Positions 8,781 through 40,338 of a stretch of 64,000 nt of DNA are shown in pieces. The DNA lies in the NCBI RefSeq assembly GCF_004366375.1, contig NZ_SOEF01000014.1, forward strand, positions 1-64,000, written 5' to 3'. Position numbers and translations under genes: made by a program. Under the pieces are notes generated by a model. That model searched no databases, was not told where the DNA came from, and saw only the letters and a list, made by a program, of their open reading frames with translations. This DNA is from Halanaerobium congolense (lineage in GTDB: Bacteria; Bacillota; Halanaerobiia; Halanaerobiales; Halanaerobiaceae). How positions within the stretch are numbered: the stretch's first letter is position 1; each line of letters opens with the position of its first letter.

Positions 8781-9125
8781 TTAAAAGGTCATTACTTTAC
8801 TATCACTTTTAAGATAATCAGTTAAAGGCTCTCCCATATATTTAACTTCAATACCCAGTTCTGCTAAATCATCTGCAACACCATATTGATCAGCACAGGC
8901 CTGACAGGCTTCAACTTTAATATCTGCTTCAATAAAATCTTTAATCTGTTCCTGCAGTTCCTTGTCCTCACTTAACAGTTTTGAGGACGGTCCCCAGACT
9001 ATAAATTTAATATCCTGCCACCACCCTCTTTTTTTAGCATTAATCGTGTACATAAAAACCATTTTTTTAGCTACATCTGGATCACCACTTGTCCATAAAA
9101 CAACTAAACTATTTTTGTCTGCCAT
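8781..9125 (-). CDS. DsrE/DsrF-like sulfur-relay family protein
   Basis: 114 residues of a DsrE-like alpha/beta fold: VLWTSGDPDVAKKMVFMYTI at the N-terminus (residues 9-28), a WGPSS turn, and a Cys pair C74/C77 in VEACQACADQYG where this family often carries its sulfur-binding Cys. Such proteins accept or store sulfane sulfur or are linked to peroxiredoxin-type systems. The ATG at 9125 is preferred because AAGGAG lies 9 bases upstream. It ends a run of redox genes on the minus strand that also holds the AhpD-like gene, and it is followed by a terminator. Confidence 0.85.
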   Translation of the reverse strand: MADKNSLVVLWTSGDPDVAKKMVFMYTINAKKRGWWQDIKFIVWGPSSKLLSEDKELQEQIKDFIEADIKVEACQACADQYGVADDLAELGIEVKYMGEPLTDYLKSDSKVMTF

Positions 9126-9154
9126 TTTATTCAACTCCTTATAGTGATAATAAT

Positions 9155-9470
9155 TTAATTTTTACGTTCTTCTAAAATCGAACCCAAAGTTTTAGCAATT
9201 TTGTAGGCTTCTAATTTTTTATCTTTTTGTTCTTTAAATTTCAAAGGAAAATGTTCTTCCTTCATCTCATCTAAAAAACCATGTCTATCTACTACCGTCC
9301 AGCTGCACAGTCAATTCCATAGCCACAGCTAAAGCATTGAGAATAACCTTCTACCTGAAACGTATCTAATATCGCCATCTGATTGGAGTCCATAACCCGT
9401 TTAATGTACTTTATTACTCCTGAATTAATTTCGGGACGACCATCAACTGCAATTCCTACTCCCCTTCTTT
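9155..9470 (-). pseudogene. C-terminal remnant of a flavodoxin-like NADPH-dependent FMN reductase
   Basis: The minus strand reads VGIAVDGRPEINSGVIKYIK (part), then SQCFSCGYGIDCAAGR followed by TAG; in another frame it continues with HGFLDEMKEEHFPLKF and runs to a proper stop at 9155-9157. These are recognisable C-terminal pieces of flavodoxin-fold FMN reductases. The N-terminal half is missing and a frameshift splits the rest, so this is dead. It lies between the lipoprotein gene and the DsrE-like gene, and abuts the inverted repeat at 9473-9525. Confidence 0.65.
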
Positions 9471-9472
9471 AA

Positions 9473-9525
9473 TTACTCAAACTCCGCATATTAATTATTT
9501 TTTTACAAATGCAGAGTTTGAGTAG
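9473..9525. repeat. Inverted repeat at a gene-decay junction
   Basis: Arms ACTCAAACTCCGCAT and ATGCAGAGTTTGAGT match over 14 of 15 positions around a 23-base AT-rich centre. No T-run follows on either side, so it is not a typical terminator. It lies exactly where the N-terminal half of the FMN reductase gene is lost, as an excision scar or a very small mobile element would. Confidence 0.55.
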
Positions 9526-9556
9526 TGATATTTAAATCAGATTAATTTCTAACTTA

Positions 9557-10090
9557 CTACTGTACTTCCATCTCACCCGTGACTTCACTAGCTTCAGTAA
9601 TCTCTGCAGATTCTTTATATTCTGAACTGGCGAAATAAATATTTCCTTCCACAGTAGCATCATAAAGAGTAAATCCATTAGTCTCAACTATAATGTCACC
9701 TTCAAAGATTCCCGCCTGAAATCTTGTATTAGGACTTTTAATAACCATTTGAGGAGCAGTAATTGTATATCTATCTGTTACGTTATAATTATCATCCTGA
9801 GCGTAAGCAGCAATTTTACGATAAATATCATTTTCTGAATTACCACCATCATGGAAAGTCCCTTCAACTACAATTTCTTCTTCAAAAGTTAAATCATTTA
9901 AGATAGCGACTATCCAGTTTCCATCAGTACTAATAGCTTCTTTAAAAGCCGCTTTTTCATTTACTATAGAAGCTGTTGTTACAGTATCAGTCGTTTCCTG
10001 CTGGTTTTCGTCTGCTGCATTACCTCCACAAGCTGTTAATAGAAAAAGAGACAGAACAACAATTGTTATTAAAGTTAATTTTTTTCTCAT
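9557..10090 (-). CDS. Lipoprotein of unknown function, paralogue of 39796-40338
   Basis: 177 residues with a lipoprotein signal peptide: basic start, hydrophobic core and lipobox LLTAC (C21). The mature part has no family I recognise. It has a DTVTTASIVNEKAAF segment, an NWIVAILNDLTFEEEIVVEG strand-rich region, and repeats of short beta strands towards the end (KSPNTRFQAG, GNIYFASSEY), suggesting a beta-helix-like fold. A paralogue of near-identical layout lies next to csoR, so both may act in metal or redox stress at the cell surface. The start follows GGGAGG by 9 bases. Confidence 0.8.
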   Translation of the reverse strand: MRKKLTLITIVVLSLFLLTACGGNAADENQQETTDTVTTASIVNEKAAFKEAISTDGNWIVAILNDLTFEEEIVVEGTFHDGGNSENDIYRKIAAYAQDDNYNVTDRYTITAPQMVIKSPNTRFQAGIFEGDIIVETNGFTLYDATVEGNIYFASSEYKESAEITEASEVTGEMEVQ

Positions 10091-10116
10091 TTTTATATTC
10101 CTCCCATTTATCTAAT

Positions 10117-10265
10117 TTATAAATTATCAATAATTGTCTGAGGCTCTGTACGAACAGTATAATCTACATTCAGATCGACAAATTCTATTTTGCCGTCCTG
10201 ATTTATAATATAGACTGGGTGTCTGAGAACTGACAGCAATTAACTGTGCACCTTTTTTTAATTCA
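10117..10265 (-). pseudogene. Remnant of a peroxiredoxin-like protein
   Basis: Two out-of-frame pieces are visible: IELKKGAQLIAVSSQTP, typical of the middle of AhpC/TSA-like proteins, and HPVYIINQDGKIEFVD with a following DYTVRTEP and a stop at 10117-10119, typical of their C-terminus. The N-terminal active-site Cys region and most of the middle are missing. It follows the AhpD-like gene directly, so the original operon probably held a peroxiredoxin with its AhpD-type reductase. Confidence 0.6.
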
Positions 10266-10270
10266 ATAAT

Positions 10271-10828
10271 CTACTTATGCTCTGCTTCCAGTTCTATTCC
10301 CAGGCCATCAGCTGTTCTATTAACATAATTAAAATAAGCAACTACCTGATTTAAATCAAGAATATCTCTATCACTCAGATCGAATTCTCTTAATCTATCA
10401 AGATCCTCCTTTTTCACTGACGCTGGCTTTTTAGTTAATTTAACAGCATAATCAAGCATTTCCTTTTCTTTTTCACTAATTGGTGCTGAATTATAATCAT
10501 CTAAAACACCACTTAATATTTTATCTGCCTGCTCATCATCCCTGATCAACTTTTGGAGCGCCGCTCCATGATGTGTTATTCAGTAATGACATTCATTGAC
10601 GTCAGACACAACTGTAGCTATCATTTCTCTCTGTCTGCGGGAAATATTTGATCTGCCGAACATAATAGTTTTATAGATTTTAAGATGGTCCTCTAAAAGA
10701 TCAGGATTTAAAGATTGAACTTTTAGAACATGTGCCACCTCATTTTTACCAGAACGACTTAACTTATCATAGAGTTTAGCTAATTTACCTTCTGCCTTAT
10801 CTTCATCTACCATATCTATCCATGCCAT
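10271..10828 (-). CDS. AhpD/carboxymuconolactone-decarboxylase family protein, probable selenoprotein
   Basis: The frame is open for 185 residues if the TGA at 10580-10582 is read as selenocysteine. The first 82 residues end in NECHY, then comes TGA, then ITHHGAALQKL and 92 further residues to a normal stop. In this peroxidase-related family the motif is E-x-CxxC-x3-H; here it is C80-H-Y-U83 with H87, so TGA replaces exactly the second catalytic Cys. A GC hairpin lies 12 bases after the TGA. The start follows a GGGAGG site, and an Rrf2-type operator lies upstream. Alternative: a Cys codon mutated to TGA in a decaying region, which also holds a peroxiredoxin stub. Confidence 0.7.
10555..10582 (-). 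promoter_or_regulatory. Candidate bacterial SECIS hairpin after in-frame TGA
   Basis: Minus strand: TGA (10580-10582), 12 bases, then GGAGC-GGC-GCTCC (10555-10567), a 5-bp GC-rich stem whose loop starts with G. Weaker pairing of ATCA with TGAT could extend it below. The distance and G in the loop suit bacterial SECIS elements read by SelB. sel genes are not in this window. Confidence 0.5.
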
Positions 10829-10844
10829 TATTATCCTCCCTTCT

Positions 10845-10969: not shown

Positions 10970-12157
10970 TTAATTTAAATATTCATTGGCTCTTAGGGCG
11001 GCCTTAGCACCCTCTGCTGCAGAAACAATAATCTGTTTATCTCTGATATCTGTTACATCTCCGGCAGCAAAAATCCCTTCTATACTTGTCTGATTATTTG
11101 CATCAATAATAATCTCATTACCCTGATTAATATCCAGGTGCTCACAGATAAAACCTGTATTGGGAATTAAGCCAATTTCAATAAAAATAGCTTTTACATT
11201 AAGTTCTCGTTCTTTACCGGTATTAAGATTTTTAATTCTTATAGATTCAACTTTCTGCTCACCCTTTATCTCAGTTGTCTGGTATGATTTACAGACTTCT
11301 ATTTTATCTGAGTTATTTACCTTATCCTGCAGACTTTTATCACCTGAGAGCTGTTCTCCTCTAATAATTAAATAAACTTCAGTCGCAATCTTTGCCATAT
11401 CCAGAGCTGCTTCCAGCCCCGAATTACCTCCGCCAACTACAGCAACCGGCTGATTTTCATAGATATAGCCATCACAGGTAGCACAGTAACTCACACCATT
11501 ATCTTTTAACTGATGTTCTCCTGGAACTCCAAGCTGCCTCTTTTTAGTTCCAGCAGCAATTAAAACAGCTTTAGTCTTAATTTTTTTATCACTTTTTGTA
11601 AGCAGAATGTGTCCTTCTGCCTGTGGATTAATATCTGTAATTTCCTCTCCAAAAAGTGTGTCTATCTTATAGTTTCTCAGATGTTTTAAAAAATTCTGCA
11701 TTAGATCCGGGCCTGAAGTTCCATATTCTGGTAAATAATTATCGATAGTGTCAGTTTCCAGCACCTGACCTCCGATATCTCTTGCTGCCATCAGAACTTT
11801 TAAGCCTTTTCTAGCCGCATAAACTGAGGCAGTCATTCCGGCCGGTCCAGCTCCAATTACAGCCAGATCCCAGTCTTTTTCACTGCAGTTTGGTCTTTCA
11901 AATTCTGTCAGATCATCAAGGCCACCAGAACTGACAAGCTCAATTAAATCATCATAGCCGCCAATTTTTTGATCATTTATAAAAATCTGGGGTATGGTTT
12001 TTTTACCGCTCCGCTCCACCATCTCCTGCTGTAGCTCTTCATTATCTGTAATATCATAATCAGTATAATCAAGCCCCAAACTTTTCAGCATGGCCTTTGC
12101 TCTTCTACAGTAAGGACACCAGGTTTTGGTATAGATTTCAATTTTTGGCTTATTCAT
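10970..12157 (-). CDS. Glutaredoxin-thioredoxin reductase fusion
   Basis: 395 residues. Residues 1-80 form a glutaredoxin domain with CPYC (C14, C17) and the TIPQIFI cis-proline strand. From about residue 95 comes a low-molecular-weight thioredoxin reductase: FAD motif GAGPAG (102-107), active site CATC (C225, C228), NADPH motif VGGGNSG and a C-terminal FAAGDV FAD segment. The fused enzyme should move electrons from NADPH directly to glutaredoxin substrates, perhaps the AhpD-like protein next door. It starts 18 bases after the Rrf2 regulator and is probably cotranscribed with it. Confidence 0.93.
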   Translation of the reverse strand: MNKPKIEIYTKTWCPYCRRAKAMLKSLGLDYTDYDITDNEELQQEMVERSGKKTIPQIFINDQKIGGYDDLIELVSSGGLDDLTEFERPNCSEKDWDLAVIGAGPAGMTASVYAARKGLKVLMAARDIGGQVLETDTIDNYLPEYGTSGPDLMQNFLKHLRNYKIDTLFGEEITDINPQAEGHILLTKSDKKIKTKAVLIAAGTKKRQLGVPGEHQLKDNGVSYCATCDGYIYENQPVAVVGGGNSGLEAALDMAKIATEVYLIIRGEQLSGDKSLQDKVNNSDKIEVCKSYQTTEIKGEQKVESIRIKNLNTGKERELNVKAIFIEIGLIPNTGFICEHLDINQGNEIIIDANNQTSIEGIFAAGDVTDIRDKQIIVSAAEGAKAALRANEYLN

Positions 12158-12175: not shown

Positions 12176-12583
12176 TTATTTGATTTCAGGATCAATAATA
12201 TCTTTAATAGTTGTCTGTTCAAGTTCAGCCAGCATTTTTTGATAGGCCCTTCCAAATACACGATGGATTTTACACCTATCTTTAATTGAACAGCCGTGAA
12301 TATCATCAACACATTCAAATACATTGTCTTTAGCTTCAAAAAGTTCCATTATTTGAGCTAAATTTATATTATCAGCATTATTAGCTAAAGTATATCCCCC
12401 CCTTTTTCCCTCAGCAGAGCTTACAATTCCAGCTGCTGATAATTTCTGCATTACCTTTGCCAGATAAGATGAAGATACATTTTCTAAATCTGCTAATTCT
12501 TTTACTGAAAGTTCCTGACCTTTATTTCTGGCTAAGATCATTAAGGCATGGACTGCATAATCCGTTTTTCGTGAAGTTTTCAT
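12176..12583 (-). CDS. Rrf2-family Fe-S or redox transcriptional regulator
   Basis: 135 residues: winged-helix DNA-binding domain (about 1-75, with DYAVHALMILA and the RGGYTLA wing) followed by three Cys, C91, C98 and C104, spaced as in the Fe-S-binding IscR/NsrR branch. It probably senses Fe-S status, nitric oxide or thiol stress. It sits between an ABC transporter and a glutaredoxin-thioredoxin reductase fusion in one minus-strand run. The two copies of a 25-bp palindrome at 10845 and 18407 flank this run and are its likely targets. Confidence 0.92.
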   Translation of the reverse strand: MKTSRKTDYAVHALMILARNKGQELSVKELADLENVSSSYLAKVMQKLSAAGIVSSAEGKRGGYTLANNADNINLAQIMELFEAKDNVFECVDDIHGCSIKDRCKIHRVFGRAYQKMLAELEQTTIKDIIDPEIK

Positions 12584-39795: not shown

Positions 39796-40338
39796 TTAAT
39801 TTTGGACTTCTATAACTCCAGTCACTTCACTATCATTAGTAATTTCTGCTGATTTCTGATATTCTTCATTAGCAAAATAAATATTTCCTTCGACAACGGC
39901 ATCATAAAGTGTGAATCCATTTGCCTCTACAATAATATCTCCTACAAATGTTCCTGCCTGGAAGCGTGTATTTGGACTTTTAATAATCATTTCAGGAGCT
40001 GTGATAGTATATCTGTCTGTTATATTACGCTGATCATCCTGAGCATAAGCTGCTATTTTTCTATAGAGATCATTTTCAGAATCTCCATCATCATAAAATT
40101 TTCCTTCAACTGTTATTGCTTCTTCAAAAGTCAAATCATTCAAAGTTGCAACAATCCAGCTGCCATCAGCACTTACTGCATTAATAAATGCTTCCTCATC
40201 CGCAATAATTGAGGCTGTGGTTACGGTATCTGCTGTTTCCGGTTCTGGAGCTGCTCCCTGTTCTCCAGCTCCAGAACATGCTGCTAACACAAAAATCGAC
40301 AAAACAGCTATTAAAGCTACAATTAACTTTTTCTTCAT
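39796..40338 (-). CDS. Lipoprotein of unknown function in the copper operon, paralogue of 9557-10090
   Basis: 180 residues with a lipoprotein signal peptide and lipobox VLAAC (C21). The mature chain follows its paralogue almost block for block: DTVTTASIIADEEAF, WIVATLNDLTFEEAI, DRYTITAPEMIIKSPNTRFQ and EGNIYFANEEYQKSAEI. No family is recognised; the strand repeats suggest a beta-helix. It is the last gene of the cop operon, 89 bases after csoR, so a role in copper or thiol stress at the surface is likely. The start follows AGGAGG by 9 bases. Confidence 0.8.
   Translation of the reverse strand: MKKKLIVALIAVLSIFVLAACSGAGEQGAAPEPETADTVTTASIIADEEAFINAVSADGSWIVATLNDLTFEEAITVEGKFYDDGDSENDLYRKIAAYAQDDQRNITDRYTITAPEMIIKSPNTRFQAGTFVGDIIVEANGFTLYDAVVEGNIYFANEEYQKSAEITNDSEVTGVIEVQN

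Follow-up and report, generated by a model that had tools for sequence, protein, structure and literature searches.

The locus

The window, that is, the whole 64,000-nucleotide stretch of Halanaerobium congolense DNA that we analysed, carries on its minus strand a gene for an AhpD-like protein (here Sec-AhpD), amid redox genes of which two are remnants (Table 1). With TGA read as selenocysteine (Sec), its frame gives M...NECHYUITHHGAALQ...EAEHK and closes at a TAG; the sole internal stop is the TGA, after which 102 residues and the stop codon follow. The initial annotation had proposed a selenoprotein of the AhpD family whose active site reads C-H-Y-Sec, placing the TGA at the second Cys of a CxxC motif and counting 103 further codons with HHGAAL kept; the latter two features are present on the minus-strand reading, the placement is borne out by alignment with Cys homologues, and only the strand, left unstated there, had to be supplied. 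It had also spoken of decayed genes nearby, which prove to be peroxiredoxin and FMN-reductase-like remnants just downstream, Sec-AhpD itself being unaffected.

Table 1. Features of the Sec-AhpD locus, in window coordinates
Feature	Position	Strand	Details
Rrf2-family regulator	12176..12583	(-)	
Glutaredoxin-thioredoxin-reductase/AhpF-like fusion (Grx-TrxR)	10970..12157	(-)	Glutaredoxin 6-64; TRX_reduct 97-394
GGAGG ribosome-binding site	10835..10839	(-)	6 nt 5' of ATG; read from sequence
Sec-AhpD gene (AhpD-like, TIGR01926 peroxidase-related enzyme)	10271..10828	(-)	185 aa, Sec83
Cys80 codon	10589..10591	(-)	predicted partner of Sec83 in CxxU; invariant column
In-frame TGA, read as Sec codon 83	10580..10582	(-)	second CxxC position (C80-H-Y-U83)
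SECIS hairpin, U-GGAGC-GGC-GCUCC-A	10554..10568	(-)	6 bp UGGAGC/GCUCCA, apical loop GGC
AhpC/TSA peroxiredoxin remnant	10092..10263	(-)	last 32 residues + short inner stretch
Small lipoprotein gene between peroxiredoxin and FMN_red remnants	9557..10090	(-)	
FMN_red-family remnant, frameshifted, 5'-truncated	9158..9468	(-)	residues 110-212, two frames
DsrE-family protein (PF02635), intact	8781..9134	(-)	end of conserved cluster

Conservation of the TGA codon

The same TGA stands at the Sec column in all 22 distinct orthologues from the order, class and phylum, which are 42-97% identical. These comprise 12 genomes of the order (12 of its 38 genomes hold a near full-length TGA orthologue), three named records (L048, L049 from Alkaliphilus serpentinus, and L050) and seven genomes from a sample of 398 from the phylum, named-record hits that fall on these same loci being treated as duplicates. 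TAA or TAG occurred at the column in none of the 22, nor did any other stop appear in the distant homologues, which come from other phyla and have Cys there, or Ser in one clade. Aligning homologues at this column had been proposed in the initial annotation, which raised the prospect of related strains with Cys beside a decaying copy here; related strains instead keep TGA, and Cys or Ser appears farther out. In comparisons among the four closest orthologues, dN/dS is 0.03-0.10 for the part 5' of the TGA and 0.07-0.12 for the part 3' of it; Sec-AhpD is therefore not a decaying gene.

In two genomes of the order (G024 and G025) a Cys-form paralogue sits beside the Sec form (L037:1504-2076 and L038:1501-2073). 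The tree puts these two paralogues either beside the Sec clade or inside it, a placement that is not firmly supported; the Sec orthologue of A. serpentinus lies in the same Sec clade as the Halanaerobium protein. The SECIS stem is broken in both paralogues, which might be Sec-to-Cys reversions with decayed SECIS, and the one at L037 keeps GGAGC...CTCC around its broken stem, possibly a fossil SECIS left by such a reversion. Separately, the clade with Ser at the Sec/Cys position (CxYS) is proteobacterial (L057, L062, L072, L121 and others), which suggests that the usual CxxC chemistry has been lost there.

Selenocysteine machinery

The genome that carries Sec-AhpD (2.83 Mb, 99.9% complete) encodes a tRNA-Sec with a TCA anticodon, SelA (E 1.4e-157), SelB (E 7.7e-108) and SelD (E 3.9e-113), with selC, selA and selB together on one contig (C23). 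SelD has an in-frame TGA of its own, in TSG*AAKMGP, which we take to be the usual Sec position of that protein. Since all four genes that the initial annotation had named as the ones to look for are in the genome, the Sec trait is present. Of the 12 genomes in the order that carry the TGA gene, 11 likewise have a full-scoring SelA. Neither selA nor selB was found in G025, whose fragmented assembly is 95% complete; its congener G024 has both, and the two genes adjoin each other in G024 and G034, so that the gap most likely reflects a contig missing from the assembly.

A SECIS hairpin after the TGA

The GC hairpin with a G-starting loop that had been described 3' of the TGA is real: 11 unpaired nt separate its stem from the TGA, and the TGA-to-loop distance is 17 nt. 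An Rfam scan of the locus returned sub-threshold chance matches only, and the SECIS was therefore assessed by a published model and by covariation. The bSECIS model (PMC13188914) calls for a loop of 3-9 nt with G in its first two positions, a stem of 4-16 bp, a spacing of 16-37 nt and a minimum free energy (MFE) of at most -7.5 kcal/mol; our hairpin fits it, with a 3-nt loop GGC, 6 bp, 17 nt, and an MFE between -8.2 kcal/mol (36 nt) and -10.6 kcal/mol (51 nt). Of the 2504 TGA triplets in the window, just 7 are followed, within the spacing allowed, by a perfect G-C-rich stem of this kind.

Across 15 orthologues the codons of the hairpin (88-91, GGA GCG GCG CTC) form the four-codon window with the lowest synonymous-difference rate in the gene, 0.11 vs. 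a gene mean of 0.50, and Leu91 is CTC in all 15, a codon that elsewhere in these genes ranks among the less used for Leu. Compensatory change is seen at two of the six pairs (U-A to C-G and C-G to A-U), and 97% of the hairpin alignment cells are paired, vs. 36-68% for slid versions. None of 500 shuffles reached the covariation score; because shuffles ignore relatedness, we treat that score as supportive rather than as a probability. The stem persists as GGAGC/GCUCC or GGAGA/UCUCC at ~50% protein identity, and the hairpin is imperfect in L045 and L032. Taken at the level of sequence, the comparison shows selection acting on Sec insertion at codon 83, and supports the view that SelB and tRNA-Sec would decode this UGA as Sec under the direction of the downstream hairpin.

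Protein family and active site

Sec-AhpD matches TIGR01926 with E 2.3e-44, at 151.3 bits vs. a cut-off of 81.8. Its AlphaFold2 model, with Cys put for Sec, has a pLDDT of 93.9 and an AhpD-like all-helical fold, and this predicted model is closest to 2prr, 2pfx, 3c1l and 6k40, which it matches over its full length (Z 23.7-24.3). In a 40-row alignment E68, C80, Y82 and H87 are invariant, and the other rows have mostly Cys in the U83 column, with Ser in four; the C-terminal half contributes the invariant residues H86, H87, Q161, N167, N170 and R171. The proton-relay residues of AhpD, namely E, C, (H/Y), C/U and H, are thus present at conserved spacing. In the Mycobacterium tuberculosis enzyme this relay is Glu118/Cys130/His132/Cys133/His137 (PMC3141380), of which Glu118, Cys130, Cys133 and His137 correspond to E68, C80, U83 and H87 at the same spacing, even though the two proteins share only 11% identity (Z 11.7 across 138 residues); Sec83 therefore stands for the residue equivalent to Cys133. 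Tyr82 takes the place of His132, as does Tyr50 in PA0269 of Pseudomonas aeruginosa (PMC3141380). Sequence comparison shows this active site to be AhpD-like.

Gene neighbourhood and decay

The cluster is complete in H. saccharolyticum: Rrf2, the Grx-TrxR fusion, Sec-AhpD, AhpC/TSA peroxiredoxin (intact at L126:8522-9154), FMN_red (PF03358; L126:9181-9819) and DsrE. The H. congolense peroxiredoxin remnant matches the intact gene at 91% over 32 aa (tblastn) and at 86-88% (blastn); in this genome the operon genes next to Sec-AhpD, for peroxiredoxin and FMN_red, have decayed, and Sec-AhpD and DsrE have stayed intact. Loci in other genera hold subsets: Rrf2, Grx-TrxR, Sec-AhpD and DsrE in G014; Rrf2, Sec-AhpD, FMN_red and DsrE in G021; FMN_red, Rrf2, Sec-AhpD and DsrE in G037; FMN_red, Rrf2 and Sec-AhpD in G024; DsrE and Sec-AhpD in Alkaliphilus; and peroxiredoxin, a regulator, FMN_red and Sec-AhpD in L050. 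Rrf2 adjoins Sec-AhpD or heads its cluster in L044 and in seven of the nine related loci that were retrieved in full. The peroxiredoxin, FMN_red and DsrE neighbourhood was not found at L033, L046 or L047.

Several further elements were noted around these genes. The small lipoprotein between the two remnants has no Pfam match; a second such gene at 39802-40338 is its 69% identical paralogue, and the same lipoprotein lies in a second H. saccharolyticum cluster copy (L133), between a Sec-AhpD relic and DsrE. That relic (L133:6566-6772; L039/L117) spans residues 49-117 only and keeps the TGA and hairpin, with an altered active site (RCU, NH) at L117; another in the same genus (L132:3915-4103; L034) spans residues 1-63 only, beside an intact Grx-TrxR. 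Just upstream of the FMN_red remnant, at 9475-9530, lies an inverted repeat whose arms match imperfectly, ACTCAAACTCTGCAT ... ATGCGGAGTTTGAGT, which may be a terminator or the end of a mobile element. Elsewhere in the phylum, genes of the GrdB family (PF07355), or pieces of them, occur near Sec-AhpD (L137:2329-2790 and L140:808-1479).

Alternative readings and proposed mechanism

Two genes immediately downstream are truly decayed, and broken Sec-AhpD copies occur elsewhere (the two relics above), as would suit a decaying gene whose TGA came from a nonsense mutation or from a sequencing error. Against this stand the same TGA in all 22 orthologues, including those with only about 43% identity, the low dN/dS after the TGA with no frameshift or other stop, and the constraint on the downstream hairpin beyond that on the protein. 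TGA conservation together with purifying selection downstream thus leads us to reject a nonsense mutation, a reading that we regard as scarcely conceivable; on these same two lines of evidence we also reject sequencing error and a split gene. The UGA could also be a true terminator, leaving an 82-residue N-terminal product or two separate ORFs. The conventional ORF list does give an 82-aa and a 92-aa ORF, the two pieces into which a conventional gene caller would cut Sec-AhpD, and some termination at Sec codons is expected in general, above all when selenium is scarce. However, invariant residues lie in the C-terminal half, where purifying selection acts as well, a split would part the two catalytic residues, and the TGA is never replaced by TAA or TAG; we consider a true terminator very improbable. 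With the machinery present, TGA kept in relatives and purifying selection on both sides of it, the proposal of the initial annotation holds, and we are highly confident that a functional AhpD-like (TIGR01926/COG2128) selenoprotein with a Sec-based redox mechanism best explains the locus as a whole.

What such an enzyme would do is less firm. We infer an enzymatic role because the relay E68-C80-Y82-U83-H87 is conserved; the redox partner and substrate we can only infer, because the neighbouring peroxiredoxin has been lost here. The Sec83 selenolate would attack peroxide or a similar oxidant, or take oxidising equivalents from a peroxiredoxin, and would then pair with Cys80 as a selenenyl-sulfide; the probable reductant that restores it is the Grx-TrxR fusion encoded immediately upstream, which depends on NAD(P)H. 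Rrf2, encoded first in the cluster, would regulate Sec-AhpD according to redox or Fe-S status. Sec may instead be inserted into a protein that serves chiefly as a disulfide or selenenyl-sulfide adaptor, or in the redox chemistry of sulfur or halogenated compounds, and not as a peroxidase. In M. tuberculosis, AhpD serves AhpC as an adaptor (PMC3141380), the recurrent peroxiredoxin, FMN_red and DsrE neighbours would suit an adaptor or sulfur role, and the debrominase Bmp8 has the same fold (Z 18.7-18.8). Yet Bmp8 is just 17-18% identical, and the relay residues agree with those of AhpD peroxidases; we see a non-peroxidase role as possible though rather doubtful. More broadly, Rrf2, the Grx-TrxR fusion, Sec-AhpD, peroxiredoxin, FMN_red and DsrE would form an undescribed redox module of anaerobic Halanaerobiales and some Clostridia, cored on Sec-AhpD, that would link NAD(P)H, via the selenenyl-sulfide, to the detoxification of peroxide or persulfide. 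The joint reading, of such a module with a peroxide or persulfide role and of reversion in the Cys paralogues, we offer tentatively, as somewhat short of an even prospect.

Comparison with known selenoproteins

AhpD-like selenoproteins with CxxU (COG2128/TIGR01926) have been catalogued (PMC1088965, PMC1794560, PMC9312934, PMC13188914), among them a family from Sargasso Sea data (PMC1088965) and a member in Alkaliphilus metalliredigenes (PMC1794560), and the literature already notes that selenoprotein genes of the Prx-like and AhpD-like kinds occur together. The initial annotation was thus right to recall bacterial AhpD-like Sec proteins, and, the family being catalogued, this selenoprotein type is not new. 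Our literature search found no description of the Halanaerobium Sec-AhpD gene or of its cluster with Rrf2, Grx-TrxR and DsrE, and the main text of the deep-Sep paper (PMC12013277) mentions neither AhpD nor Halanaerobium. The work adds a clear, lineage-wide selenoprotein, with its redox cluster, to the gene content of the halophilic anaerobes of the Halanaerobiales.

The Cys-form peroxidase-related proteins 2pfx, 3c1l, 6k40, 2oyo and 2prr share the fold throughout (Z 23.2-24.3) at 24-33% identity, and 2pfx, 3c1l and 6k40 have CxxC in the same place, with Cys where Sec-AhpD has Sec83. NF041238 (CFYUT), NF053654 (YciW-related) and NF041047 (a distant AhpD homologue) have a CMD/AhpD-type domain, as does Sec-AhpD; a CxxU motif is given for NF041238 and NF041047 (PMC13188914), and NF041238 and NF053654 match Sec-AhpD weakly, far under their cut-offs (71.3 vs. 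175 and 37 vs. 310). With the known COG2128/TIGR01926 selenoproteins Sec-AhpD shares the family, the CxxU motif and a small-loop SECIS with G after the UGA; unlike the catalogued members, it belongs to Halanaerobium and is clustered with Rrf2, Grx-TrxR and DsrE.
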